Assembly: GCA_020072565.1 (NCBI GenBank)
Contig: JAIQGI010000019.1
Coordinates: forward strand, 124,001-188,000
Source: Terriglobia bacterium
Lineage (GTDB): Bacteria > Acidobacteriota > UBA6911
Length of the DNA stretch: 64,000 nt
Direction: 5' to 3'
Every line of letters starts with the position of its first letter. Position 1 is the stretch's first letter. Made by a program: the position numbers and the translations under genes. This document shows positions 3,444-27,421 of this stretch, in pieces. The notes under the pieces were generated by a model, which saw nothing but the letters and a program-made list of their open reading frames with translations, did no database searches and was not told the DNA's origin.

Positions 3444-5225
3444 TCACCGGATATCCCAACCCTTTTCCTTGTAGTAGTCCTTGACCAGTTTCTGGATATC
3501 GATCGTAGTGCCTTTGGATGGGCCATCCGGGATTGGGTGGTGGAGGAAACGGGGAGGAAGCGTGTCGTCTTCGGGGCGCAGGCCTTCGCGCAGGTTGAAT
3601 TCCCGCTCGACTTGGCTGACATGCGAGCAGACTTCCAGGAGCTCGCGGGGCGCGATCTCCCTGCCGAGCAGGCCGGAGTAAGCGTCGGCAGCCAGGTCGA
3701 AGTCGACGACATCCATGCAGCAGGAAATGTTCTTGCAGATCGTGATGCTGTCCGAGAGGAGTCCCAGGTGCTCGGCGTATTTGACCAGAGCCCCTTTCCC
3801 TTCATCTTTGAGTCGGTGGGCCGCTTCCCGGTAGCCTACCCGCCGCAGCGCGAGATCTTCATCATCTGACAGCTCGATCATGGGCTCGCCCCGATAATGA
3901 TCACCGCCCCGGGAGTTGACGGCGTTCGTCAGGGCGTATCCCTTGATGCCGCGAGGATCGGCAGAAAAGAGTTCCAGACCCTTCACCTCCGCCGTCAGTT
4001 TGCGGGCAGCAGCGCCGAACTGCGCGGCTGCGCGCTTCGTACCCTCGGCAAGCAGATTACCGATGCCCTGCCGCTGCGCGATCATCTCGGGAAGCCGCAG
4101 CAACGCCTCGCGCGAGCCCCAGGAAAGGTCGATGCCGTCGACGTCGGCGTCGCAGATCACCCCTTCCTGCCGGCATTCCATCAGCCAGGCAATCACCTCG
4201 CCCGCGCTGATACAGTCGATCCCGAGCCGGTTCACCGCATTCGAGACGCCGACTGCAAGCTCCAGATCCGAGTTGCCGCACTTGACGGTGAAGGCCGCCA
4301 GGGCTTCGTACTCAGGGCCTTCGCCTTCGCCGTACAGCGTATAGTTGTACCGGGAGCAGAAAACACTGCAGTTGTAGCACGACTTCGCCTTTACCACATG
4401 GTCCCGGCGCAGGGCTTTGGCGTTGACCTTTTCGAGATCCGCGAAGACGGTGCTGCGATAATGGTAGGCGGGGAGGACCCCCATTCCGGCCAGCGAATCC
4501 ATGATGCGGGTCGTCCCGTACTTGCGACGCGGCTCGAACTCGCGGTGCCCTTCTAGGTTCGACTGCAGCCGCGCGCAGGCCTTCCTGAACCGTTCCGGGT
4601 CGGCGGGTTTGACCGGCCTGTCGCCGTGCACGACGATGGCCTTGAGCTTTTTCGATCCCATCACGGCGCCCATACCTGTCCGGCCCGCCGCGCGCGCCAG
4701 GTTGCATGAGATGATCGCATAGCGGACGAGATTCTCCCCGGCCGGCCCAATGGCGGCAACCTGCAGGTCGGGATCGCGCAGCTCCCGGCGCAATTGCACC
4801 GTGGTCTCGGTGATATCCATTCCCATGAGATGGGCGGCATCCCTGATCTCGACCCGGTCGTTGTCGACGAACAGATAGACCCAGCGGTCCGAAGCGCCCG
4901 TGAAAACGATCTGATCGTGGCCTGCCCAGCGCATTTCAGGAGCGAAGAATCCCCGTGCCCCGGAGTCGCCCAGGTAACCTGTCAGAGGGCTCTTGGCACT
5001 GGCGATAAATCGGCACGTGGCAATCAGCTCACTCCCAGTGAGCGGCCCCACAGAGATGCACAGGATGTTTTCCGGCCCCAGCGGGTCAATGCCCGACTTC
5101 AGTTCCCGCAGCAGGGTGATGCTGTTCCAGGTCCTGCCGCCAATCCCGTTCTCGGGCGTATCGCCGCGCCGAAACTGATGATGCGTCAGGTCCACACGCA
5201 GGCAGTTCCCACGACAAATGCTCAT
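3444..5225 (-). CDS. Aldehyde ferredoxin oxidoreductase (tungsten/molybdenum bis-pterin enzyme)
   Basis: 593 residues, close to the usual AOR length of about 600. Features in order: the N-terminal AOR fold with GGRTWNSITLL, the pterin-binding stretch GPLTGSE..., the GAVMGSKKLKAIVVHG segment near residue 210, and the CYNCSVFC motif (Cys-x2-Cys-x3-Cys) near residue 290 that binds the 4Fe-4S cluster. AOR enzymes oxidise aldehydes to acids and reduce ferredoxin in the cytoplasm. The ATG at 5225 overlaps the ferredoxin stop in an ATGA, implying translational coupling. A longer open frame to 5417 overlaps the ferredoxin gene and is not used. The substrate is unknown. Confidence 0.9.
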   Translation of the reverse strand: MSICRGNCLRVDLTHHQFRRGDTPENGIGGRTWNSITLLRELKSGIDPLGPENILCISVGPLTGSELIATCRFIASAKSPLTGYLGDSGARGFFAPEMRWAGHDQIVFTGASDRWVYLFVDNDRVEIRDAAHLMGMDITETTVQLRRELRDPDLQVAAIGPAGENLVRYAIISCNLARAAGRTGMGAVMGSKKLKAIVVHGDRPVKPADPERFRKACARLQSNLEGHREFEPRRKYGTTRIMDSLAGMGVLPAYHYRSTVFADLEKVNAKALRRDHVVKAKSCYNCSVFCSRYNYTLYGEGEGPEYEALAAFTVKCGNSDLELAVGVSNAVNRLGIDCISAGEVIAWLMECRQEGVICDADVDGIDLSWGSREALLRLPEMIAQRQGIGNLLAEGTKRAAAQFGAAARKLTAEVKGLELFSADPRGIKGYALTNAVNSRGGDHYRGEPMIELSDDEDLALRRVGYREAAHRLKDEGKGALVKYAEHLGLLSDSITICKNISCCMDVVDFDLAADAYSGLLGREIAPRELLEVCSHVSQVEREFNLREGLRPEDDTLPPRFLHHPIPDGPSKGTTIDIQKLVKDYYKEKGWDIR

Positions 5226-5740
5226 GAATCGACCCTCGCGCCGTTTTTCCAGCTTGCACGGAGCGGTTCCCCTTGCGCGCCCACATAGCCGGCGCGCCTC
5301 TGATTGGGATTCCCCGTCGACAATAGGAATGCTTTCAGCGGGATCTCCCTGTAAGCCTCCAGATAAGAAAGGGCTCGGCTGGGACATGCATCCACGCAGG
5401 CAACAGCGCCGCCGCACAAGTCGCAGAAAAGCGGACGGTCTTCATAAAAGCCGACCGCGCCGATCGGGCATGCCTCAGCGCAGGTCTTGCAGGTGTCGCA
5501 CCGTTCGGCATCCAGAAGGATCTCGCCCTGGGCCCCGACCGACAGCGCATCTGCAGGACATGCCAGGCAGGGCTTCTCGGCGCAGCTCAGGCAGGCAACC
5601 GCCATGTCTATGCCGGTCTCTTCCAGCTTGGCCACGCGGATGCGCGCCAGAACAGGAGAGACCGCGCCGAAGTGAAACGAGCTGCAGGTTACCTCGCACA
5701 TCCTGCAACCCACGCACCTCTTGATGTCGCATTCAATCAT
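5222..5740 (-). CDS. Four-cluster ferredoxin-type electron carrier, AOR partner
   Basis: 172 residues with four cysteine groups, CVGCRMCEVTC, CLSCAEKPCLAC, CDTCKTCAEAC and CDLCGGAVACVDAC, so it probably holds four 4Fe-4S clusters, like HycB/DmsB-type subunits. No Tat or Sec signal is present, which fits a cytoplasmic partner. It begins seven bases after the TIGR04076 gene stop and ends in an ATGA overlap with the AOR gene. It should carry electrons away from AOR to a membrane or soluble acceptor. Confidence 0.88.
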   Translation of the reverse strand: MIECDIKRCVGCRMCEVTCSSFHFGAVSPVLARIRVAKLEETGIDMAVACLSCAEKPCLACPADALSVGAQGEILLDAERCDTCKTCAEACPIGAVGFYEDRPLFCDLCGGAVACVDACPSRALSYLEAYREIPLKAFLLSTGNPNQRRAGYVGAQGEPLRASWKNGARVDS

Positions 5741-8192: not shown

Positions 8193-9596
8193 CTAGACTT
8201 CAAGACCCAGGTACTGGCGGGCATTCTGGTAGCAGATGTTCCGTACCATGGAACCGATCAGTGCCTCGTCATCGGGCAGCTCTCCCTTCTGGATATCTGT
8301 GCCCAGCAAGTTGCACAGGACCCGGCGGAAATATTCATGGCGCGGGTAGGACATGAAGGAGCGCGAGTCGGTTAGCATCCCGACGAAACGCGCCAGCAGG
8401 CCCGAGTTCGACAGGGCATTGAGCTGCCATTCGATGCCTTCCTTCTGATCGAGAAACCACCAGCCACTGCCGAACTGGATCTTGCCGGCGATCGATCCGT
8501 CCTGGAAGTTGCCGATCATGGTGGCGAACGCATAATTGTCGGAAGGGTTGAGGTTGTAGATGATCGTCTTCGGCAGAGCGTTTTCCTGGTCCAGCCGATC
8601 CAGGTAAGCACCGAGTGCATTGGCCTGCGGCCGGTCGCCGATGGAATCATAGCCGGTGTCGGGGCCGAGCTCCTTCATGCGGCGGGTGTTGCTGTTGCGC
8701 CGTGCACCCAGGTGCAGCTGCTTGGTCCAGCCCCTTTCCGCGTCCAGGCGGCCGAAATAGAGCATCATATACGCCGCGAAGCGCGACTGCTCCTGCAGCG
8801 TGGCGGGCTTGCCGCCGCGCACTTTGGCGAAGATACCGGCTGCGCTGCGCTCGGACGGGAAATCGGCATAACATCCGGCCAGGCCGTGATCGGAGAGACG
8901 GCAGCCCAGCTGGTGGAAATAATCGTGCCTTCGGCGCAGTGCGGCAAGAAAATCGCCGAGGCCGGCGATGTGGGTGTTGCCGGCTGCCGCCAGCCGGTCC
9001 ACCCACGCGTTGAACTCGTTGGGCTGGTGTACATTCAGCGACTTGTCAGGACGGAACGCGGGATAGACCTTTGCCTCCAACCCCAACGCGGCCATGTTCC
9101 TGTGATGGCCCAGATCATCCGTGGGATCGTCAGTCGTACACAGTGCCCTGACCCGGAACTTCTTCAGAATCCCCTGGGCATGCATCTCGGGGGTTGCCAG
9201 CAACGCGTTGGCGCGTTCCCAGATGCCGGCCGCGCTGCGCTCGTCCAGCAGCTGCTCGATGCCGAAGTAGCGTTTCAGCTCCAGGTGCGTCCAGTGGTAG
9301 AGCGGGTTGCGCAGCGTGTGCGGGACCGTGCACGCCCAGGCCATGAATTTTTCGAAGTGCGGTTCATCGCCGGTGCAGTAGCGCTCCGGTATGCCGTTGG
9401 CGCGCATGGCGCGCCACTTGTAGTGATCCCCCTCCAGCCAGATTTCGAACAGATCCCGGAAAGCCCGGTTCCCCGCGATGTCCCCGGGGGAGAGATGGCA
9501 ATGGAAATCGAGGATCGGCTGGTCGGCCGCGTACTTGTGATACAAACGCCTGGCACTTTCCGTCTGCAGAAGAAAATCATCATGGATGAAGGCCAT
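8193..9596 (-). CDS. uxaC: Glucuronate/galacturonate isomerase
   Basis: 467 residues, the usual size. This amidohydrolase-fold enzyme converts D-glucuronate to D-fructuronate and D-galacturonate to D-tagaturonate. The family metal motif FHCHLSPGDI lies near residue 30. Further conserved blocks are DHYKWRAMRANGI, CTTDDPTDDL near residue 160, and the C-terminal ARFVGMLTDSRSFMSYPRHEYFRR. The start at 9596 has AAAGGA six bases upstream; the open frame runs further but overlaps the control region. It is divergent from the SDR gene, with the shared repeat motif between them, and catalyses the first internal step of the pathway in this block. Confidence 0.96.
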   Translation of the reverse strand: MAFIHDDFLLQTESARRLYHKYAADQPILDFHCHLSPGDIAGNRAFRDLFEIWLEGDHYKWRAMRANGIPERYCTGDEPHFEKFMAWACTVPHTLRNPLYHWTHLELKRYFGIEQLLDERSAAGIWERANALLATPEMHAQGILKKFRVRALCTTDDPTDDLGHHRNMAALGLEAKVYPAFRPDKSLNVHQPNEFNAWVDRLAAAGNTHIAGLGDFLAALRRRHDYFHQLGCRLSDHGLAGCYADFPSERSAAGIFAKVRGGKPATLQEQSRFAAYMMLYFGRLDAERGWTKQLHLGARRNSNTRRMKELGPDTGYDSIGDRPQANALGAYLDRLDQENALPKTIIYNLNPSDNYAFATMIGNFQDGSIAGKIQFGSGWWFLDQKEGIEWQLNALSNSGLLARFVGMLTDSRSFMSYPRHEYFRRVLCNLLGTDIQKGELPDDEALIGSMVRNICYQNARQYLGLEV

Positions 9597-9712
9597 ATCG
9601 GGTCCTTTCTGCCGCTCAAAGGGAGGGGGTCGGGTCTGCGCCGGCACTATGCTACGGCATCGCCTGCCTGCAGGCAACCGCCTTTGCGCTGGTTTCAACA
9701 AATAAAACAAGA

Positions 9713-9744
9713 TTGTATTTGACAAAACGGCCCGCTCCGTGTTC
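9713..9744. promoter_or_regulatory. Shared control motif, copy 1 (between uxaC and the SDR gene)
   Basis: TTGTATTTGACAAAA at 9713-9727 is repeated exactly at 21277-21291 in the other divergent uronate promoter region. Both copies are followed 7-8 bases later by TCCGTGTTC (here 9736-9744). The core is a TTGT-N5-ACAA dyad. A further imperfect dyad with CAAATA and TATTTG arms surrounds this copy. The embedded TTGACA has no convincing -10 partner at the right distance, so an operator for one of the IclR proteins is more likely than a plain promoter. Confidence 0.6.
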
Positions 9745-9851
9745 TTTTTTGGATGTCTGCGAACCATTCAGGTGCGCTCGAGGAGCCGGCCCGCGGCGGC
9801 GCGCCGGGAAATTCGCCTTCTGCACCACGAAACTTGCACACGGACGGGAAC

Positions 9852-10700
9852 ATGATTCAGACGCCGATGAGTCTCGAAAAGCTGTTGCGGTGGTACGACT
9901 TCACGGGGCAGACGGTGGCAATCACGGGGGGCACGGGCGTTCTCGGCAGCGAAATCGCCTGCGCACTGGCCACCTGTGGCGCCCGGCTGGCCATCCTTGA
10001 CCTGCGCCTCGAACCGGGTCAGGCCCTTCTGGAGCGCATGGGCAGGCACGCGGAGAATGCCGCGCTGTTCCACGTGGACGTTTTGAAGATCGAGAGCGTG
10101 CGCAAGGCGGCCGCGGACGTGCTTGCCCGGTTCGGGAGGGTGGACTGCCTGATCAACGCTGCCGGCGGCAACCAGCCGCAGGCCACTACGAGCCCCGAGC
10201 TGAAGTTCTTCGACCTTCCCACCGAAGCCCTGCGCTGGGTCTTCGACCTGAACGTCATCGGCACGATCCTTCCCTGCCAAGTCTTCGGCAAGATCATGGC
10301 GGACCACGGCAGCGGCGTCATTCTGAATGTGTCCTCGATGAACGCCTTCCGCCCGCTGACCCGCATACCGGCCTACTCGGCGGCGAAGGCCGGCGTGAGC
10401 AACTTCACCCAATGGCTCGCGGTGCATATGGCTCATGAATATTCACCGCGCATTCGCGTCAACGCCATTGCTCCCGGCTTCTTCCTGACGGATCAGAACC
10501 GCTTCCTGCTCAAGGACCGCGAGACCGGCGAACTGACCTCGCGCGGCAAGTCGATCCTCGCGCATACTCCCATGGCGCGGTTTGGAGATCCGGAAGACCT
10601 GCTCGGTGCCGTGCTCTGGCTGCTTTCACCGGCATCGGCGTTCGTAACCGGCACGATCGTGCCGATCGACGGCGGTTTTTCCGCCTACAGCGGTGTCTGA
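9852..10700 (+). CDS. SDR oxidoreductase, probable D-mannonate oxidoreductase (fructuronate reductase)
   Basis: 282 residues, cytoplasmic. The nucleotide-binding GGTGVLGSE lies near residue 24, the NAAGG motif near 103, and the catalytic YSAAKAG near 177. The SDR family includes mannonate oxidoreductases that replace the classical UxuB/UxaB long-chain enzymes in several phyla. The location, divergent from uxaC and upstream of the IclR, transporter and KDG kinase genes, supports reduction of fructuronate to mannonate. The start at 9852 has GGGAA in front; the open frame to 9753 includes an upstream low-complexity stretch. A gluconate- or KDG-type SDR is the alternative. Confidence 0.85.
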   Translation: MIQTPMSLEKLLRWYDFTGQTVAITGGTGVLGSEIACALATCGARLAILDLRLEPGQALLERMGRHAENAALFHVDVLKIESVRKAAADVLARFGRVDCLINAAGGNQPQATTSPELKFFDLPTEALRWVFDLNVIGTILPCQVFGKIMADHGSGVILNVSSMNAFRPLTRIPAYSAAKAGVSNFTQWLAVHMAHEYSPRIRVNAIAPGFFLTDQNRFLLKDRETGELTSRGKSILAHTPMARFGDPEDLLGAVLWLLSPASAFVTGTIVPIDGGFSAYSGV

Positions 10701-13379: not shown

Positions 13380-14474
13380 ATGTTGCAGATTCGACCCAAA
13401 GCCGAGTGTAAGTGGGATCTGGTCAGCCTGGGCGAGGTCATGCTCCGGCTGGATCCCGGCGATGACCGGATTCATACCACTCGCCGCTTCCGTGCCTGGG
13501 AGGGTGGAGGCGAATACAACGTGGCCCGCGGCCTGAAGCGCTGCTTCGGCCTCGACACCGCGGTCGTCACCGCGTTCGCCGACAATCCGGTCGGGCGCCT
13601 CATCCAGGACCTGATCTACCAGGGCGGCGTCGATCAGACACACGTCCAGTGGGTGCCCTACGATGGCGTCGGGCGCATGGTGCGCAACGGGCTCAACTTC
13701 ACCGAGCGCGGGTTCGGACTGCGCGCCCCTCTCGGTTGCTCGGACCGCGGCCACACGGCGGCTTCGCAAATCAAGCCCGGGGATTTCGACTGGGATCGGA
13801 TTTTCTCCCGGGAGGGCGCGCGCTGGTTTCACACCGGCGGCATATTTGCGGCGTTGTCCGAAATGGCTCCCCTGGCCGCCGCCGAAGCGATGCAGGCGGC
13901 CCGGCACCACGGCGTCGTTGTTTCGTACGATCTCAACTACCGCGAATCGCTTTGGAAGGCGATCGGCGGGCAGAAGCGCGCGCAGGAAGTCAACCGCGAA
14001 CTGGCATCGTTCGTGGATGTCATGCTTGGCAACGAAGAGGACTTCACTGCGGCCATGGGCTTCGCCGTGGAGGGCCTTGACCAAAACCTGTCGAAACTCG
14101 ACCCGAAAAACTTCCGGCGTATGATCGAAAGGGTCATCCTGCAATATCCCAACCTCAGGGTCGTCGCCACCACGCTGAGGAACTCCAGGACGGCGACGGT
14201 CAACGACTGGGGGGCGATCTGTTATTGCGACGGCGAGACCTATTGCGCAACCAACCGTGAATACCTGGAGATTTACGACCGCGTCGGCGGGGGAGACTCA
14301 TTTGCCTCCGGCCTGATCTACGGCTTCCTGACGGGCCGGGACCCGCAGTGGGCAGTTGAGTGCGGGGCGGCCCACGGCGCCCTTGCCATGACGACCCCGG
14401 GCGACACGACCATGGTAACCGTGGCGGAAGTGGAACGGGTCATGAAGGGCGCCAGCGCCCGTGTTGCCCGTTGA
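13380..14474 (+). CDS. kdgK: 2-keto-3-deoxygluconate kinase (PfkB family)
   Basis: 364 residues. This ribokinase-fold enzyme phosphorylates KDG at C6 to give KDPG. Visible are the N-terminal LGEVMLRLDPGDDRI, the sugar-binding GGGEYNVARGL, the SYDLNYRESLW strand, and the catalytic GGGDSFASGLIYG near residue 303 with the anion-hole Gly and base Asp. The start at 13380 follows GAGGGCAAGCCA. It lies between the uronate transporter and the polygalacturonase gene. A second, damaged copy of the family lies at 23486-24489. Confidence 0.92.
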   Translation: MLQIRPKAECKWDLVSLGEVMLRLDPGDDRIHTTRRFRAWEGGGEYNVARGLKRCFGLDTAVVTAFADNPVGRLIQDLIYQGGVDQTHVQWVPYDGVGRMVRNGLNFTERGFGLRAPLGCSDRGHTAASQIKPGDFDWDRIFSREGARWFHTGGIFAALSEMAPLAAAEAMQAARHHGVVVSYDLNYRESLWKAIGGQKRAQEVNRELASFVDVMLGNEEDFTAAMGFAVEGLDQNLSKLDPKNFRRMIERVILQYPNLRVVATTLRNSRTATVNDWGAICYCDGETYCATNREYLEIYDRVGGGDSFASGLIYGFLTGRDPQWAVECGAAHGALAMTTPGDTTMVTVAEVERVMKGASARVAR

Positions 14475-14549: not shown

Positions 14550-16166
14550 ATGCTGAGCGAAAACAGCGTACGCCGTGAGTTTATCAAGCGATTCGCAGCC
14601 GGCGCGGCAATGTCATTGCCGGTTATGGCTTCGGCCGGGGAAGCAACGGCGGCGATGCGGCAGAAGCCCTCCGCCCGCGCGCTCCTCTCGCTCAACGTCG
14701 CGGACTTCGGCGCCGCCGGCGACGGGAAGACGCTCTGCACCGCAAGCATCCAGAAAGCAGTGGATGCCTGCGCGCAGGCAGGCGGCGCCAAAGTGGTTTT
14801 CCCCGCCGGCAGATATCTCACCGGCCCGATCTTTCTGAAAAGCAACGTCCACGTGGAAATCCCGGCCGGTGTGACCTTGCTCGGGAGCGTGGACTTCGGA
14901 AGAGTACCCTCGATTGCCGGACGTTGGGAAGGTATCGACCGCACGGTCTACGCCTCGATGTTCACCGGCCTCGACCTGGAAAACATCTCCATTACCGGCC
15001 GCGGGGTCATCGATGGCCAGGGGGATGCGTGGTGGAAGGCGTTCCGGGTCGTTACCGACCTGAGGAGAAAGCTCGGGCTCGCAGAGCGCGAGCCGGAAAA
15101 TCCTCCCGGCTCCCCGCTTAACTGGGCGCGCCCACGCATGATCAACCTCTATCGCTGCAAGAACGTGTTGATCGGCGGCCTGACCGTGATGAATTCGCCG
15201 GCATGGAACATTCACCCGGTGTTGTGCGACAACATCGTCATCGACCAGGTGACGATCATGGCCCCCGAGGAGGCGCCTAACACTGACGGCATCGACCCGG
15301 ATTCGTGCCGGAACATGCGCATTTCAAACTGCTACATCAGCGTGGGGGATGACTGCATCACGCTCAAGTCCGGATATAAATTCCAGAAGTCGGGGAAAAA
15401 CATCCCCAGCGAAAACATTGCCATCACCAACTGCATATTCGCCCGCGGCCATGGGGGCGTGGGGATCGGCAGCGAAACCTCCGGCGGCGTACGCAACGTG
15501 ACCGTCAGCAACTGCATCTGCGAAGGCACAGATCGCGGGCTGCGATTCAAGACCGCCAGAAGCCGCGGCAACATTGTGGAAAACTTCCGCGCGCAGAATG
15601 TGGTCATGCGCGGCGTCGGCGACGCCATTTCGGTCACCATGCTATACAACGCCAGTGACCCCCGCACGCCGCAACCCATCGACGAAGGTACGCCCACATT
15701 CCGCAACATCCACCTGAGCGACATCACCGCAAGCGATGTCAAGCGCGCGGTGCTCATCGAGGGGTTGCCTGAAATGCCGATCCAGGGGCTGAGCATCAGC
15801 AACTTCGTGGTCAACGGCGCAGGCACGGGTATCTCCTGTTCGAACGTCGCCGGCATGACCTTCGACAATGTCACGATCCATGCGGAGAAAGGACCGGCCC
15901 TGGACGTTGCCAATGTCCGCCGCCTGGAGGTCTATCGATTCGCCGATCGCAATCCCAAAAAGGACCAGCCGGTCATTCGCCTGGAAAACGTTGACGATGG
16001 ACTCATTCAATCCTGCAAAGCGACCGAAGGCACAGGCACATTCCTCGAATTGAAGGGTGGCAATGTCAGGGAGATTAGCTTGATCGCCAACCGGCTCACT
16101 CACGCATCGAAGGAAGTGGCCTTTGTGGCCGGCGCGCCGGAATCCGCCGTCATCAGACGCCTGTAA
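14550..16166 (+). CDS. Polygalacturonase-like glycoside hydrolase, family GH28
   Basis: 538 residues, exported. A twin-arginine-like start (SVRREFIKRF) leads a hydrophobic stretch ending near an Ala-Ser-Ala site at about residue 33. The right-handed beta-helix carries the GH28 catalytic signature: NTDGIDPDSC near residue 248, GDDCITLKSG near residue 267, GHGGVGIGSET near 304, and DRGLRFKT near 330. The aspartates of NTDG and GDD and the GHG histidine are all present, so it should be active on pectin-type galacturonan chains, probably exo-acting. GGAGG six bases upstream selects the start at 14550. The last 14 bases overlap the convergent aldolase gene. Confidence 0.93.
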   Translation: MLSENSVRREFIKRFAAGAAMSLPVMASAGEATAAMRQKPSARALLSLNVADFGAAGDGKTLCTASIQKAVDACAQAGGAKVVFPAGRYLTGPIFLKSNVHVEIPAGVTLLGSVDFGRVPSIAGRWEGIDRTVYASMFTGLDLENISITGRGVIDGQGDAWWKAFRVVTDLRRKLGLAEREPENPPGSPLNWARPRMINLYRCKNVLIGGLTVMNSPAWNIHPVLCDNIVIDQVTIMAPEEAPNTDGIDPDSCRNMRISNCYISVGDDCITLKSGYKFQKSGKNIPSENIAITNCIFARGHGGVGIGSETSGGVRNVTVSNCICEGTDRGLRFKTARSRGNIVENFRAQNVVMRGVGDAISVTMLYNASDPRTPQPIDEGTPTFRNIHLSDITASDVKRAVLIEGLPEMPIQGLSISNFVVNGAGTGISCSNVAGMTFDNVTIHAEKGPALDVANVRRLEVYRFADRNPKKDQPVIRLENVDDGLIQSCKATEGTGTFLELKGGNVREISLIANRLTHASKEVAFVAGAPESAVIRRL

Positions 16167-16827
16167 AACCCTGTTGAGTCTGAATCGCAGCCGAAGCCAC
16201 GGCCGCGACGGTCAAATCCTCGATCCGGCGCCAGTCTCCGGCGGCGATCAGTCTCTTTTCCACCATCCAGGACCCGCCGATCGCGACTACGGACGGCCGC
16301 TCCAGGTACGACTGCATATTGCTCATGTTGATGCCGCCGGTCGGGATAAACCGTACGCCCGTATGGCTGTAAGGGCCCTCCAGAGCCTTGAGCATCGCCA
16401 CACCGCCCGCCTGCTCGGCGGGAAAAAACTTGAGTGTGCGGCAAGACATGCTCAGGGCGTTTTCCACCTCCGAAGGGGTCATCACACCGGGCACCATTTC
16501 CAAGCCTGCCTGCCGGGCGCTTTCCACAACACGGGGATTCAGTCCCGGCGCCACGGCAAAACGGGCGCCGCTCTCCGCCGCCCTGCGAACCTGATCCGCA
16601 TCCAGCAGTGTGCCGGCCCCCAACAGCATCTCTGGGAACCGCTCCGCGATTCTGCGAATGCATTGCACGGCCGCTGCGGTGCGGAAGGTGATCTCCATGA
16701 CATCCAGGCCGGCTCTGAGCAGGGTTTCCGCCAGCGGTTCCGACAGCTTTTCGTCATCCAGCACGACCACGGGGACAATGTGCCTGCGTGCTATCCGTTC
16801 CAGAACACTCACGCTCGCCTCGCCCAT
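16153..16827 (-). CDS. eda: KDPG aldolase (2-keto-3-deoxy-6-phosphogluconate aldolase)
   Basis: 224 residues, the size of a class I KDPG/KHG aldolase. It splits KDPG into pyruvate and glyceraldehyde-3-phosphate. Motifs: IVPVVVLDDEK at the N terminus, GAGTLLDADQVRRA near residue 68, PGVMTPSEVENAL near residue 110, the Schiff-base lysine in TLKFFPAEQAGG near residue 132, and FIPTGGINMSNM. It lies eleven bases after kduD, with GAGGCAGG before its ATG, and is the last gene of the operon read from the DUF4861 gene. Confidence 0.94.
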   Translation of the reverse strand: MGEASVSVLERIARRHIVPVVVLDDEKLSEPLAETLLRAGLDVMEITFRTAAAVQCIRRIAERFPEMLLGAGTLLDADQVRRAAESGARFAVAPGLNPRVVESARQAGLEMVPGVMTPSEVENALSMSCRTLKFFPAEQAGGVAMLKALEGPYSHTGVRFIPTGGINMSNMQSYLERPSVVAIGGSWMVEKRLIAAGDWRRIEDLTVAAVASAAIQTQQGFTGV

Positions 16828-16837
16828 TTCGCCTGCC

Positions 16838-17602
16838 TCAACGCGCCAGCCAACCGCCGTCCACTGCCACCGTGTATCCGTTGATATAGTCCGATGCTTT
16901 CGAAGCCAGGAACACGACGATGCCCTGGAGATCTTCCGGCTTGCCCCAGCGCCCCATCGGTATGCGCTCCAGGATCGCCTTATTCCGTTCCGGGTCCTCG
17001 CGCAGCGCCTTGGTGTTGTCGGTCGCCATATAGCCGGGCGCGATGGCGTTGGCGTTGATCCCAAGGGGTCCCAATTCACAGGCCAGCAGCCGCGTGAGAC
17101 CCATCACGGCGCTCTTGGAGGAAGTGTACGATGGCACGCGGATCCCGCCCTGGAAGGACAGCATCGACGCTATGTTGATGATCTTGCCATAGCCCTGCTT
17201 GACCATCACGCGGGCCGCCGCCTGGCTGAGGAGGAACAGGGCCCTGATGTTGACGTTCATGACATCGTCCCAGTCCTTTTCGGTAAACTCCAGGAACGGA
17301 GCACGGCGGATGATCCCTGCGTTGTTGACGAGGATATCGAGCCTGCCGAAGGCCGATAAGGCCTTCTCGACCAGCATAGGTGCAGCGCCCGGCGCAGCCA
17401 GGTCTGCCTCCAGCGCCAGGCACTTCCGGCCCAGTTTCTGAATGCCGGCCCGCGTCTCGGCTCCGTCTGCCACATCAGCGGCAACCACATCGGCCCCTGC
17501 GCCGGCCAGCGCCAGCGCCATGGCCTGCCCGAGACCGCGCGCTGCTCCCGTCACGAGAGCCGCCTTCCCATCCAACCGGAACTCATCCAATATCGCGCTC
17601 AT
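16838..17602 (-). CDS. kduD: 2-dehydro-3-deoxy-D-gluconate 5-dehydrogenase (SDR)
   Basis: 254 residues, very close to enteric KduD length. It reduces 2,5-diketo-3-deoxygluconate to KDG in the unsaturated-uronate branch of pectin breakdown. The NAD site TGAARGLGQAMA is at residue 18, NNAGIIRRAPFLEF at about 92, IINIASMLSFQGGIRVPSYTSSKSAVMGLTR holds the Ser and the catalytic Tyr-x3-Lys near residue 160, and the C terminus reads TVAVDGGWLAR. The IIRR after NNAG is typical of KduD rather than of generic SDRs. The isomerase KduI that would supply it is not in the window. Confidence 0.93.
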   Translation of the reverse strand: MSAILDEFRLDGKAALVTGAARGLGQAMALALAGAGADVVAADVADGAETRAGIQKLGRKCLALEADLAAPGAAPMLVEKALSAFGRLDILVNNAGIIRRAPFLEFTEKDWDDVMNVNIRALFLLSQAAARVMVKQGYGKIINIASMLSFQGGIRVPSYTSSKSAVMGLTRLLACELGPLGINANAIAPGYMATDNTKALREDPERNKAILERIPMGRWGKPEDLQGIVVFLASKASDYINGYTVAVDGGWLAR

Positions 17603-19917: not shown

Positions 19918-21222
19918 TCACCGGCCGGGAAAGAGCAGCCTCAGGTGGCGTTCGTACAAGTTGGCGGTCACGTTGCGCGCGATCGTGTCTTCGCAGGCGT
20001 CCAGCATCCTGAGGTAACGGTCGCCCAGACTGGCTGCGGTCTTATAGGCGACATGAAGCATCTGCCGGAGGTGTGGGTTGAAGTCCGGACATTTCCGGTC
20101 GTGGCGGAGCGCCGCGGTGAACTGCGCAGATGACCACGAATTCACCTGTTGTGGAAAAGGAAGCCTGGTCGCATCGATATCGATGACGGCCGCATAGGGT
20201 GCGCACAGTTCCTCCCGGCGGGCGTATGCCTGAGCATAGATCTCCTTCGCCATCTCGAGACCTCCCCCGCCCGCCTCAGCCAGGCCGATCACCTCCTCCA
20301 GCCATGTCGTACCAGCAGTCTTCACGTGGACGCCGATGTCGAAATCGCGCAGAGCGCGGCAGATCGCAGGGTACAGGGAGAACTTGTCACTGCCCGAGTG
20401 GACGCTCAGCTTCAGATTGCCGGGCAGATGATAGCAGCGCACTGCATGGCCAATGACTGCAATGTCGCTGCGAAACTCGGCTTCGAACCTGGCGGCATCT
20501 CCCACATAATCGACACCTTTGTTGAATCGACCGGTAAACTTGGGCGCAATCGCCTGCAGCGGGACTTGCTCGTCGGCAAGCGCAGCCAGGATCACGAGCA
20601 GTTCCGACGGCGACTGGGGAGAGTCGGTCTCATCCATTGAGACCTCGGTGACAAACTGCCCTTTGCCCCTGGCGGCCTCGATGCGGCGATAGATCCGGCC
20701 GGCCTCTTTGACCGCGAACAGGTAATTGCCTGCGGTTTGCGCGGTTGCGGTACGGGAGATATGCAGGGCGGTATCGAATTCGGGGAGACTGACGGGTTTC
20801 AGGAGTTCGGGATGTCGCTTCAGAAACCTGTCGATTTCATCAGCGGGCGCGAGCCGGCCTATGGCTGACGCGACATCAAGGGTGTAGTAATCGCTGGACT
20901 CGAGAAAACCATCCACGGTTTCCAGCGTGATATGATCGGCGTCGACGTAAAAGGGCCTGGTCCAGCCGAGTTTGTACACGGCGGCTTCGGCTGCCCTGCG
21001 GACGTCCCCCGGCCTGGATCCCACATTCATGTGCTCCCGGTTCGATTTGTTCCAGACCGGGATCACATCGATTCCGTCTCGTGCAGCCAACATACAGGCA
21101 CGCAGCTGCGCCCCGGCCTGATGCGCAAAGCGGTCACCGATGCCGATCGAATACTTCCCTATGCGAAGAGTCTGCACAGCGGATTGCAGTGGTGTATCGG
21201 ACTTCTCAGACGGAATTGGCAT
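19918..21222 (-). CDS. uxaE: Tagaturonate epimerase (UxaE-like)
   Basis: 434 residues. The sequence resembles the UxaE family, which interconverts D-tagaturonate and D-fructuronate at C4 in Thermotoga-like pathways and avoids the separate tagaturonate route through altronate. Conserved-looking blocks are SIGIGDRFAHQAGAQLRA near residue 25, FYVDADHITLETVDGF near 90, FVTEVSMDETDSPQSPSELL near 190, RCYHLPGNLKLSVHSGSDKFSLYP near 260 and GVHVKTAGTTWLEE near 300. The paired His/Asp/Glu residues would suit metal binding. GGGGGTG precedes the ATG. It is divergent from the isomerase gene at 21436, with the shared control motif between them. Confidence 0.82.
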   Translation of the reverse strand: MPIPSEKSDTPLQSAVQTLRIGKYSIGIGDRFAHQAGAQLRACMLAARDGIDVIPVWNKSNREHMNVGSRPGDVRRAAEAAVYKLGWTRPFYVDADHITLETVDGFLESSDYYTLDVASAIGRLAPADEIDRFLKRHPELLKPVSLPEFDTALHISRTATAQTAGNYLFAVKEAGRIYRRIEAARGKGQFVTEVSMDETDSPQSPSELLVILAALADEQVPLQAIAPKFTGRFNKGVDYVGDAARFEAEFRSDIAVIGHAVRCYHLPGNLKLSVHSGSDKFSLYPAICRALRDFDIGVHVKTAGTTWLEEVIGLAEAGGGGLEMAKEIYAQAYARREELCAPYAAVIDIDATRLPFPQQVNSWSSAQFTAALRHDRKCPDFNPHLRQMLHVAYKTAASLGDRYLRMLDACEDTIARNVTANLYERHLRLLFPGR

Positions 21223-23485: not shown

Positions 23486-24489
23486 TCAGCGCTGGATGCG
23501 CGCCGAGCCGCCGCGGGCGAACGCGCGCACCTGCTCCACGGTTGCCATGGTCGTGTCCCCGGGGAAGGTGGTAAGGAGCGCGCCGTGAGCCCAGCCCAGC
23601 CTGACCGCCTCCTCGGGCGTCTCGCCAGTGAGCAGGCCATAAAAAAATCCGGACGCGAACCCGTCTCCGCCGCCTACGCGATCGAGCACGTCCAATTCGC
23701 AGGTCGGAGAGGCGTAGGTTGCGCCGTTGATCCAGGCTACTGCGCCCCAGCTGTGCCGGCTTGTCGAATGGACCTCACGCAGGGTTGTGGCGACGATTTT
23801 CACCTGCGGATGCTTCCTGACCACGCCGTCGATCATTCCGATGAAGGCGGCAGGGTCGAGTTTGGACTTTGCGGCAACCTCGGGCCCCGGAATGCCCAGG
23901 CTTTTCTGCAGGTCTTCCTCGTTGCCGACCAGGACGTCGACGTTGCGGACGATGCGCTCGACAACTTCGACGGCGCGCCCCTGGCCGCCCCAGATGTTCC
24001 AGAGCTTCTCCCTGAAGTTCAGGTCGAAGGAGACTATGGCCCCGGCAGCCTTGGCGGCTTTCATGCCTTCGATGATGACCTCACCGGTGGTTTCCGAAAG
24101 CGCCGCGAAGATGCCGCCGCTGTGAAACCAGCGCACGCCTCCGGCGCAGATGGATTTCCAGTCGAAGTCGCCTGGCCGGAGTTGGGCTGCCGCTTCATGA
24201 GCCCGGTTATAAAAGACGACGGGGGCACGTACACCGTGGCCGCGGTCGCTGTAGACAGTGGCCATGTTAGGACCATTGACGCCATTGTGATCGCCGTCAC
24301 GATTCCCGTATTCAAACGGAAGCAGTCTGCCAGGTTGGCGGCCACGTTGTACTCACCTCCGCTGACATGGATCCGGCACTCCTGGGCCTTGCGAAACGGG
24401 ATGATCCCAGGATCCAGCCGATGCACCAGGGCGCCCAGAGAGACAAAGTCCAGCGCTCCCGCCTGATGCATGTCGAGCCCATATTTCAT
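23486..24489 (-). pseudogene. Second KDG kinase-like PfkB gene, broken by an internal deletion
   Basis: The N-terminal frame starts at 24489 behind a strong AAAGGAGG and gives FVSLGALVHRLDPGIIPF and HVSGGEYNVAANLADCFRLN, then GIVTAI. Homology resumes in another frame at about 24290 with HNGVNGPNMATVYSDRGHGV, then SFDLNFREKLW and the catalytic GGGDGFASGFFYGLL, ending at 23486. Lined up with the intact kdgK at 13380, about 28 residues (near 85 bases, not a multiple of three) are missing at 24287-24292, where GATCAC can be read in either frame. The deletion breaks the frame, so no full kinase is made. An assembly error is the alternative. Confidence 0.8.
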
Positions 24490-24548
24490 TTCCCGCCTCC
24501 TTTCGCTTGAGTCTTCAGGCGCTGCACCGAGCACGTCCCGGAGTGCCG

Positions 24549-25952
24549 CTACCACTCGGTATGAAAGACGCCTGGTTTGTCCACGCGGCGGTAGGTGTGC
24601 GCACCAAAATAATCGCGCTGCGCCTGCGTCAGGTTAGCCGGCAGGCGTTCGCTGCGATAGGCGTCGAAATATGACAGCGACGCGCTCAGAGCCAGCACGG
24701 GAATGCCCAGTCCGACGGCGGTCTGGACGAAAGCGCGCCAGGCCTGCTGGCGCCGCTCGATGGCGTCGCGGAAGGTCTCGTCCAGCAGCAGGTTGACAAG
24801 CGCCGGATTGCGCCGGAAGGCCGCCATGATGTCGCCGAGCAGGCTGGCACGGATAATGCAGCCCGCGCGCCAGATTTTCGCGATATCGGCCGGCTGAAGC
24901 CCGTAGCCGTATTCCTCCGACGCCAGGCGCAGCAGGCCGAGACCCTGCGCGTAGGAAGTGATCTTGCTCGCGTAGAGCGCATCGCGCGCCGCGTCGATCA
25001 ACCACTGCGGATCGCCTGCGTACTTCGGTGCCGGCCCATGGAGCAGTCGGCTGGCGGCCATGCGTTGCGGTTTGAGCGCCGAAATGATGCGGCTTTCAAC
25101 GGCCGCATTGATAGTGGGGATCGGGGCGCCGATGTCGAGCGCATTCTGGCTGGCCCATTTGCCGGTCCCCTTCTGCTGCGCCTCGTCGAGGATGACGTCC
25201 ACCATCGGTCGGCCGGTTTCCGGGTCGATTTTAGCCAACACCTCGGCGGTGATTTCGATCAGGTAGGACTTCAGCTCCCCCAGATTCCACCCGGTGAACA
25301 CGTCGCGGAGCTGCTGAGCCGACAGCCCGAGGCCCCGTGACAGGACATCGTAGGTCTCGGCGATCAGCTGCATGTCGCCGTATTCGATCCCGTTGTGCAC
25401 CATCTTCACATAATGGCCCGCGCCGCCCGGGCCCATATACTCCACGCACGGCTCCCCATCGTCGGCCTTGGCAGCAATGGCGCGCAGGATCGGGGCGAGT
25501 GCTTCCCAGGCGTCCCGCTGTCCGCCCGGCATGATGCTCGGTCCCCAGAGCGCCCCCTGCTCTCCGCCGGATATGCCCGCACCGATGTACTGGAATCCTT
25601 CGGCCGCGAGCTGCTTGCTCCTGCGCTCGGTGTCGAGGAAAAGCGAGTTCCCGCCGTCAATCAGGATGTCCCCGGCCTCGAGGTGCTCCTTGAGATGAGT
25701 GATGGCGCTGTCGACCGCAGGTCCGGCAGGGACCATCATCAGCACGCGGCGCGGCTTCTTCAACAGGGTCATCAGCCTGTCAGGCAATTCGGCCAGCGTC
25801 ACCTCCCTACCCGCCGCCGGCCCGCTCACAAAAGCCTTTGCCTTGCCTGCGTCGAGATCGTAGCCCGCGATGCGGAAACCGTTACGCTCCATGTTGAGAG
25901 CCAGGTTGCTTCCCATCACGCCCAAACCGACCACGCCGATGTCACATTGCAT
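24549..25952 (-). CDS. gnd: 6-phosphogluconate dehydrogenase, decarboxylating
   Basis: 467 residues, the usual length. It oxidises 6-phosphogluconate to ribulose-5-phosphate with release of CO2. Motifs: the NADP site IGVVGLGVMGSNLALNMERNGF, MVPAGPAVDSAI near residue 78, DGGNSLFLDTERR near 103, the active-site YMGPGGAGHYVKMVHNGIEYGDMQLIAE near 182 with the catalytic Lys and Glu, and the tail FGAHTYRRVDKPGVFHTEW. The start at 25952 has GAGGAG eight bases upstream; the open frame before it is not coding-like. It lies between the LarA homologue and the broken kinase on one strand. Confidence 0.96.
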   Translation of the reverse strand: MQCDIGVVGLGVMGSNLALNMERNGFRIAGYDLDAGKAKAFVSGPAAGREVTLAELPDRLMTLLKKPRRVLMMVPAGPAVDSAITHLKEHLEAGDILIDGGNSLFLDTERRSKQLAAEGFQYIGAGISGGEQGALWGPSIMPGGQRDAWEALAPILRAIAAKADDGEPCVEYMGPGGAGHYVKMVHNGIEYGDMQLIAETYDVLSRGLGLSAQQLRDVFTGWNLGELKSYLIEITAEVLAKIDPETGRPMVDVILDEAQQKGTGKWASQNALDIGAPIPTINAAVESRIISALKPQRMAASRLLHGPAPKYAGDPQWLIDAARDALYASKITSYAQGLGLLRLASEEYGYGLQPADIAKIWRAGCIIRASLLGDIMAAFRRNPALVNLLLDETFRDAIERRQQAWRAFVQTAVGLGIPVLALSASLSYFDAYRSERLPANLTQAQRDYFGAHTYRRVDKPGVFHTEW

Positions 25953-26086
25953 GCTTGCGCTCCTCAGTGTGCCGTAACCGCATCCGCTCGGCGGTCGACG
26001 AATGGAAATGATCCGGTCCACCGACGGGTCGTTTCAACAGGCGCACACCAAAGAAATCCATCCACCACCAATCCAAAACACCAGCC

Positions 26087-27421
26087 TCAACCATCCTCAT
26101 GTGCCATTCGCCCTTCGTCATTCTTTTTGAGGCGGTAGAGCATTTCTCCGGCGCGGGGAACGACAACCACGCCCTCGCTCTCGCGGCCTGCCCACTCTTC
26201 GATCCGGATGCCGGCAGGGTTCAGATAGCCGAGATTGATACGCCGGCACCGTTCTTCGGGGATTCCGGTGGCCAGCGTCACCTGGATGCGCGGCGTCTCA
26301 ATGCAGGTGGACGGGTTATAGCTCCCCAGTCCCTTGACGTGGGTCGAGTGCGCAAGGACACCGCCGGGGTAGCGTTCAAACCGCTGCCAATGAGCCAGAA
26401 AGTAGTCCCGGCAGTGGTAGCCTACCTCGTCGATTATGCTGCCGTGCGTGTAGCTGACCTCGGTGATGTGGGGCGCATAAATGACGACCTCTCCGCCGTC
26501 GGCCACGGCCGGTTCGAGCTTGTACATGCCCTTCGCCGCCGTCCAGAGATCGTCGTACATCTCGGGCATAATCGACAATACCCGGCGGAACGGCCGTTCG
26601 ACGTAAACGATGTGCGTGCGGGCCGAAAGATCTGCGGCCGCGCGCCACGCGTGCTGCGACGGGCCGAAGTAGAGTCCTCTCATCCCGCCATGGGTGACGA
26701 CGAGCGCGAGACAGGCGACAGGGCGATCGATCAGCGCGGCCGCACGATCAATGACGGCACGAACCGGTGTGAAGCTCGTGCCGATCACGTGATAGTTGGT
26801 AATGATGGCACCGAGCCAGTGCGTGAAGTTAATGATCTCGGAGCCGGCGATGCCGGGGAAGAGGTACTTGTTGCCGCCGGAAAAACCAACCACTTCATGG
26901 GGAAACACCGGCCCGCAAATCAGGATCTGGTCGTAGTTGAAGATCAGCTTGTTGAGCGAAACGATCACATCACGCTCGAGCAGGCCGCCGCTGAGATTCC
27001 GGATCTCCGCTGCCGGGATGGTACCGAGCGTCGCGAATGTGTCGGGATCTTCCCAGCGGTGGTTGAAGATCCGGCTGCGACCGGCCTGCCCGTCAGCGAC
27101 TTGCCGCCCGATCAGACGGCTGAGCTGGGCATCAGACATGGGTTGATGAGTCCCGAGCGCGACGAGGTAGTCGAGCGCGGCCACACGGGATCCGGCTTCC
27201 GCCTCGAGAATATCAACCATCAACGGCAACGGCATTGTCCGCGTGCCATCCGGGATGATGACCAGCAGGCGCCTGTCGTGGAGCGCCAGCGAAGACAGGC
27301 CCTGTCGAACCAGGCTCCGGACTTCTCCCTGCTTCAAGTAGCGGTCGCACGATCCCAGGCCCAAGACCCCGGAGGGAGGATGATCAGTCGGGGAGGAGTT
27401 TGCCGCAGGGTCACAATTCAT
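26087..27421 (-). CDS. LarA-like nickel-dependent 2-hydroxyacid racemase/epimerase (DUF2088)
   Basis: 444 residues. The N-terminal domain shows LLVIIPDGTRTMPLP near residue 52 and LVALGTHQPMSDAQL near 85, which is the LarA signature with a cofactor-contacting His. The second domain shows CGPVFPHEVVGFSGGNKYLFPGIAGSEIINFTHW near residues 170-205, holding the His and Lys positions that carry the nickel-pincer nucleotide in LarA and the later His. The known family includes lactate, malate and aldonate (D-gluconate C2) racemases or epimerases. The lar maturation genes are not in the window. It heads a run with gnd and the broken kinase, so an aldonate is the likely substrate. CGGAG lies some 12 bases before the ATG. 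Confidence 0.85.
   Translation of the reverse strand: MNCDPAANSSPTDHPPSGVLGLGSCDRYLKQGEVRSLVRQGLSSLALHDRRLLVIIPDGTRTMPLPLMVDILEAEAGSRVAALDYLVALGTHQPMSDAQLSRLIGRQVADGQAGRSRIFNHRWEDPDTFATLGTIPAAEIRNLSGGLLERDVIVSLNKLIFNYDQILICGPVFPHEVVGFSGGNKYLFPGIAGSEIINFTHWLGAIITNYHVIGTSFTPVRAVIDRAAALIDRPVACLALVVTHGGMRGLYFGPSQHAWRAAADLSARTHIVYVERPFRRVLSIMPEMYDDLWTAAKGMYKLEPAVADGGEVVIYAPHITEVSYTHGSIIDEVGYHCRDYFLAHWQRFERYPGGVLAHSTHVKGLGSYNPSTCIETPRIQVTLATGIPEERCRRINLGYLNPAGIRIEEWAGRESEGVVVVPRAGEMLYRLKKNDEGRMAHEDG

Follow-up and report, generated by a model that had tools for sequence, protein, structure and literature searches.

In Thermotoga maritima, a route from mannonate by way of gluconate to 6-phosphogluconate dehydrogenase (Gnd) was predicted, and homologues were pointed out in Acidobacterium and Terriglobus, according to the account of Rodionova 2012 given in PMC6978723. 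The T. maritima operon aldH-pelB-gnd-uxaRED-gntEK is co-regulated (PMC3750489), and T. maritima GntE2 (structure 4NAR) epimerises D-mannonate and D-gluconate, GntE activity having been shown in 2020 (PMC7583248) and also measured in PMC11770544. Here we analyse a 64,000-nucleotide window from a Terriglobia bacterium (part of contig JAIQGI010000019.1, C19 below; genome 7.46 Mb, 98% complete), in which a LarA-like gene, gnd and a PfkB-family kinase form a run within a hexuronate (pectin-sugar) locus of this soil bacterium.

The locus shares with gnd-uxaRED-gntEK the epimerase family, the active-site residues and the company of gnd, UxaE and hexuronate genes. It differs in that the T. maritima operon has the gluconokinase gntK where the window has a broken PfkB-family kinase, and in its reductase, which is a short-chain dehydrogenase/reductase (SDR), and its regulators, which are of the IclR type. 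Near the epimerase of the window we find gnd and UxaE, and no recognisable gluconokinase. The mannonate kinase/6-phosphomannonate 2-epimerase route of Lactobacillus suebicus also joins mannonate to 6-phosphogluconate and Gnd, but phosphorylation there comes before epimerisation, and the genes are unknown. The pathway itself is not new, having been described earlier for Thermotoga. What looks new is that a PfkB-type kinase fills the gluconate-kinase position in many relatives and is broken by a 79-base deletion in the source genome.

The epimerase and its cofactor genes

On the minus strand, the order of transcription is the LarA-family gene, then gnd, then a PfkB kinase in two frames (PfkB2). 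Open reading frames (ORFs) and profile matches bear out the initial annotation as to this one-strand run, its hexuronate setting and its coordinates. The best reading of the run, which we consider probable, is that it makes up the lower end of a hexuronate pathway, in which mannonate is turned into gluconate and passed on to Gnd, with epimerase and kinase substrates that we infer. UxaC and UxaE would yield D-fructuronate, which the SDR D-mannonate oxidoreductase of the window would reduce to D-mannonate. A GntE-like enzyme dependent on the nickel-pincer nucleotide (NPN) would then invert C2 to give D-gluconate, a kinase would yield 6-phosphogluconate, and Gnd would produce ribulose 5-phosphate, CO2 and NADPH.

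The LarA-like ORF encodes 444 aminoacids with a Pfam Lar_N domain (PF09861, 77 bits, E 1.2e-21). Among solved structures 4NAR is by far the closest (phmmer E 4.7e-66; 33% identity, 228 bits), with LarA a weak match (E 1e-8). Scores elsewhere are 140-143 bits to a group-18-like family and 64-69 bits to LarA. An AlphaFold2 model (pLDDT 89.9, pTM 0.88) was compared with Foldseek, and matched 4NAR better than any LarA or Mar structure (TM-scores 0.85/0.89; 2.4 A across 428 columns). It also matched all LarA structures which, together with Lar_N, places the protein in the LarA superfamily. Among characterised enzymes the protein is closest to a proven GntE, and it most likely turns mannonate into gluconate.

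The initial annotation had noted that the His and Lys positions of the cofactor site are kept. All seven NPN and catalytic residues (D58, R61, H92, H175, K185, H201 and K297; in LarA D72, R75, H108, H174, K184, H200 and K298, PMC7583248) are in fact present, and none of them varies among the 81 members of the clade. Equally fixed in all 81 is E176, V177 and W293, the hexonate signature (E-V/S loop and helix 11 W) described for groups 18-20 of the LarA homologues, LarAH (PMC7583248). Signature and NPN site are thus shared with groups 18 and 19 (the putative hexonate epimerase NF052594 and Corynebacterium glutamicum GntE1). The difference from group 18 is that the window protein lies far under the curated cut-off of NF052594 (176.6 bits against 500) and is not a member. 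On the same model GntE2 scores 188 bits, and a group-18 protein from the source's bacterial family 635 bits. A deep tree with long branches leaves open whether GntE2 first joins the window clade or group 18.

The maturation genes on which the initial annotation made its proposal depend are all in the genome, over their cut-offs and on three other contigs: larB (281 bits), larC (462 bits) and larE (321 bits). A second LarA homologue, lactate-racemase-like, lies on contig C17 (L001, 853-2106, minus strand; 435 bits, just under the cut-off of 460), so that the lar genes alone are no proof that the LarA-like epimerase gets loaded.

Neighbourhoods of the epimerase in relatives

We scanned GTDB genomes for larA-like genes and considered the best 80 of at least 587 loci, with 53-78% identity. 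These belong to Acidobacteriota, Chloroflexota, Cyanobacteriota, Planctomycetota, Gemmatimonadota, Rhodothermota and others; by the LarA-like protein, the closest relatives of the source genome are Acidobacteriota. The most common neighbour is an orthologue of the window SDR (49 loci), followed by gnd (34), UxaC (23) and UxaE (21), with UxaC or UxaE in 37. Counts from ORF clustering differ slightly, owing to other thresholds. As the initial annotation had proposed to check, gnd co-occurs with the same larA clade, directly downstream in 25 loci, and its presence near 34 of the 80 argues that the linkage is not chance.

The SDR orthologues stand directly upstream of the larA-like gene, mostly with 57-75% identity to the window SDR (42-47% in cyanobacteria). 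Two loci (L082 and L092) hold UxaC-SDR-LarA-Gnd-PfkB2, one gene for each of the five steps that lead from glucuronate to ribulose 5-phosphate. Considering only Nostocales, the loci combine GntK (TIGR01313, 155 bits against 113.75), a LacI regulator, UxaC, SDR and LarA. Here a textbook gluconokinase is part of the same pathway, which anchors gluconate as the likely product of the epimerase. The kinship to GntE2, the hexonate signature, the lar genes and these conserved neighbourhoods all support the role that the initial annotation gave to the run.

Myo-inositol oxygenase stands near the same set in seven of the nine Nostocales loci (L075, L083, L087, L088, L091, L093 and L095), which gives an apparent inositol-to-6-phosphogluconate route in cyanobacteria. 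Furthermore, a HAD-like hydrolase (PF13419) adjoins the larA-like gene in 17 of the 80 relatives, mostly directly upstream. Nine of these 17 loci also have a pyrophosphate (PPi)-dependent phosphofructokinase near gnd (L042, L052, L057, L058, L060, L063, L066, L078 and L081).

The kinase position and the order of steps

PfkB2 is split between two frames. The N-terminal part runs from 24489 down to about 24290, preceded by a good Shine-Dalgarno sequence, and the C-terminal part (23486-24265, minus strand) matches Pfam PfkB with E 1e-14. Aligned with the intact orthologues L021 and L022, the gene lacks 79 bp in one clean deletion at 24290/24289, which shifts the reading frame. No stop codons interrupt the remainder, whose identity to L022 is 87%, so the break is either recent or an assembly error. 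The initial annotation, which saw a broken relic of a 2-keto-3-deoxygluconate (KDG) kinase, was therefore right about the break but not about an old relic, and its KDG label gives way to what is probably the branch's own kinase.

No second intact copy of PfkB2 is present in the genome, where the only other PfkB match is an intact paralogue in the window, PfkB1. As for known gluconokinases, the initial annotation saw none in the window and the genome search recognised none either: there is no GntK type (TIGR01313), and the best FGGY match (TIGR01314) reaches 118 bits against a cut-off of 648, with the top two scoring better as xylulokinase. With no working PfkB2 or recognised gluconokinase, the branch in this genome would be served by PfkB1 or an unrecognised kinase, or would be idle, unless the assembly lost 79 bases.

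In the 80 loci, PfkB2 is found in 14, GntK in 9 (all Nostocales) and FGGY in 4, and no locus has two of them. The gnd gene is present in 12 of the 14 PfkB2 loci (Fisher p 0.0006 without correction for descent; 0.007 among full-flank loci). None of the 14 has a match to 2-keto-3-deoxy-6-phosphogluconate (KDPG) aldolase or to UxuA/ManD. Such KDG-pathway company was seen only in two loci that are not PfkB2 loci, with KdgA at L030 and L086, and ManD at L086.

Two further observations on this position were set aside. The PPi-dependent phosphofructokinase, found with gnd in 10 loci and never with PfkB2, was considered as a fourth filler of the slot; its best relatives are PPi-dependent phosphofructokinases (3k2q, 3hno), which makes a role downstream in the pentose-phosphate pathway likelier. 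Nor does kinase exclusivity serve as proof (0 overlaps against 5.3 expected, 2 of 5000 shuffles as low), with lineages confounding and this phosphofructokinase counted in.

The alternative that PfkB2 is an ordinary KDG kinase, linked by happenstance, while a distant or promiscuous kinase serves the gluconate branch, we hold to be unlikely though far from negligible. The closest solved structure is indeed a KDG kinase (T. maritima 2AFB, PfkB family), to which intact PfkB2 orthologues align over their full length and whose Arg residues of the aldonate site appear retained. Against it, PfkB1 is nearer to 2AFB (220 bits) and shares its locus with KDPG aldolase, whereas PfkB2 is accompanied by gnd and the epimerase but by neither aldolase nor dehydratase. 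PfkB1, about 47% identical to intact PfkB2 orthologues, was overlooked in the initial annotation, as was the aldolase. In the simplest reading, PfkB1 would phosphorylate KDG and PfkB2 would act as the epimerase branch's aldonate kinase, with KDG and gluconate specificity not separable by sequence.

Similarly doubtful is the possibility that an assembly or sequencing error produced the disruption and that the organism itself has a complete operon. No other damage is seen in the gene, which is so close to L022; a clean 79-bp loss without evident repeat is also what one would expect of a real recent deletion.

Returning to the aldonate-kinase reading, the intact orthologues are candidate PfkB-type gluconate (or mannonate) kinases, and PfkB2, encoded beside gnd, would most likely be the kinase in the Acidobacteriota and Chloroflexota of the clade. 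We give even chances to a broader claim: that PfkB2 (intact in L021, L022, L029, L034, L082, L092 and others) constitutes a new, non-homologous aldonate kinase class, gluconokinase or mannonate kinase, which in Acidobacteriota, Chloroflexota and Gemmatimonadota takes the place of GntK and FGGY kinases in a hexuronate pathway with a nickel epimerase. No PfkB gluconokinase was found in the literature searched, which is not proof of absence. If true, similarity-based annotation would mislabel PfkB2 as KDG kinase, and a PfkB group resembling KDG kinase would gain a testable name.

Several points weigh against the route from mannonate through gluconate to Gnd. An identity of 33% to GntE2 does not fix the substrate of the LarA-like protein, whose epimerase function is predicted, and published GntE enzymes have a high KM for D-mannonate (9-120 mM; PMC7583248, PMC11770544). 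In the window the SDR sits 16 kb from the larA-like gene, and the kinase of the run is broken. The nearest solved relative of intact PfkB2 is KDG kinase 2AFB (169 bits), and once phylogeny is controlled for, only 2 usable pairs are left, too few to give a test of PfkB2 association with gnd any power.

The poor KM for free mannonate also speaks for the reverse order of steps, in which PfkB or another kinase first makes 6-phosphomannonate and the LarA-like enzyme gives 6-phosphogluconate directly. This order was measured in L. suebicus extracts, with the genes unidentified (PMC6978723). We find it improbable here: GntE2, the nearest relative, acts on free mannonate (PMC7583248), and the Nostocales loci pair the LarA-like enzyme with a canonical gluconokinase. 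Least probable is that the enzyme epimerises another uronate-derived acid (e.g. altronate, gulonate or aldarate), with gnd linked through general pentose-phosphate demand: for GntE1 (group 19), where the KM for mannonate is 120 mM, the authors do suspect a different substrate (PMC7583248), but D-mannonate oxidoreductase is the commonest neighbour, gluconokinase occupies the slot in cyanobacteria and altronate dehydratase (UxaA) was not found in the genome.

If mannonate is indeed drawn off through gluconate to Gnd, a route known from one hyperthermophile would extend widely through soil Acidobacteriota, Chloroflexota, cyanobacteria and Planctomycetota, and uronates derived from pectin or inositol would yield pentose phosphate and NADPH with no need of mannonate dehydratase. 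Mesophilic enzymes from the clade could serve to decide between free and phosphorylated mannonate as substrate, a question that also concerns the L. suebicus pathway and its unidentified genes.

Mannonate dehydratases and other genes of the window

The initial annotation had proposed an outlet independent of mannonate dehydratase. This holds as far as neither UxaA nor a canonical UxuA was found in the genome. It is weakened by proteins elsewhere with Tat-like signals: a UxuA homologue, the sole representative, of partial similarity (115 bits against 191), and a ManD-like protein (412 bits against a cut-off of 550). The absence of mannonate dehydratase is thus only partly shown. At about 99-111 kb, contig C5 encodes a group of clustered proteins, enolase-superfamily and UxuA-like, that bear Tat-like signals (L101, L106, L107, L110 and L112), probably exported sugar-acid dehydratase homologues.

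The features of the window are collected in Table 1. The gnd ORF spans 24549-26021 on the minus strand, with the likely true start an ATG at 25952 (MQCDIGVVGLGVMG).

Table 1. Features of the hexuronate locus, in window coordinates.
Feature	Coordinates	Strand	Evidence
UxaC glucuronate/galacturonate isomerase	8193..9767	-	Pfam UxaC E 6.9e-196
SDR D-mannonate oxidoreductase (fructuronate reductase)	9753..10700	+	NF006132 359.7 bits, cut-off 281
PfkB1, intact PfkB paralogue, likely KDG kinase of the locus	13380..14474	+	2AFB match 220 bits
KDPG/KHG aldolase, start codon uncertain	16153..16836	-	PF01081 223 bits; TIGR01182 247 bits, cut-off 156
Second SDR, directly before KDPG aldolase, no settled substrate	16838..17602	-	Pfam adh_short_C2
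UxaE-family tagaturonate/fructuronate epimerase	19918..21222	-	Pfam UxaE E 2e-49; clusters with UxaE of relatives
PfkB-family sugar-acid kinase PfkB2, disrupted	23486..24489	-	Alignment with intact orthologues L021, L022
6-phosphogluconate dehydrogenase (gnd), decarboxylating, NADP type	24549..25952	-	TIGR00873 644 bits, cut-off 426.7
LarA-superfamily epimerase, GntE-like (predicted D-mannonate/D-gluconate 2-epimerase)	26087..27421	-	Lar_N; 4NAR best solved relative; conserved residues

Between 16153 and 21222 the minus strand carries a one-strand run of UxaE, an IclR regulator, a DUF4861 protein (no known function), an SDR and the KDPG aldolase. Lastly, at 3444-5417 on the minus strand there is an aldehyde ferredoxin oxidoreductase with AFOR_N and AFOR_C; such enzymes usually contain tungsten.

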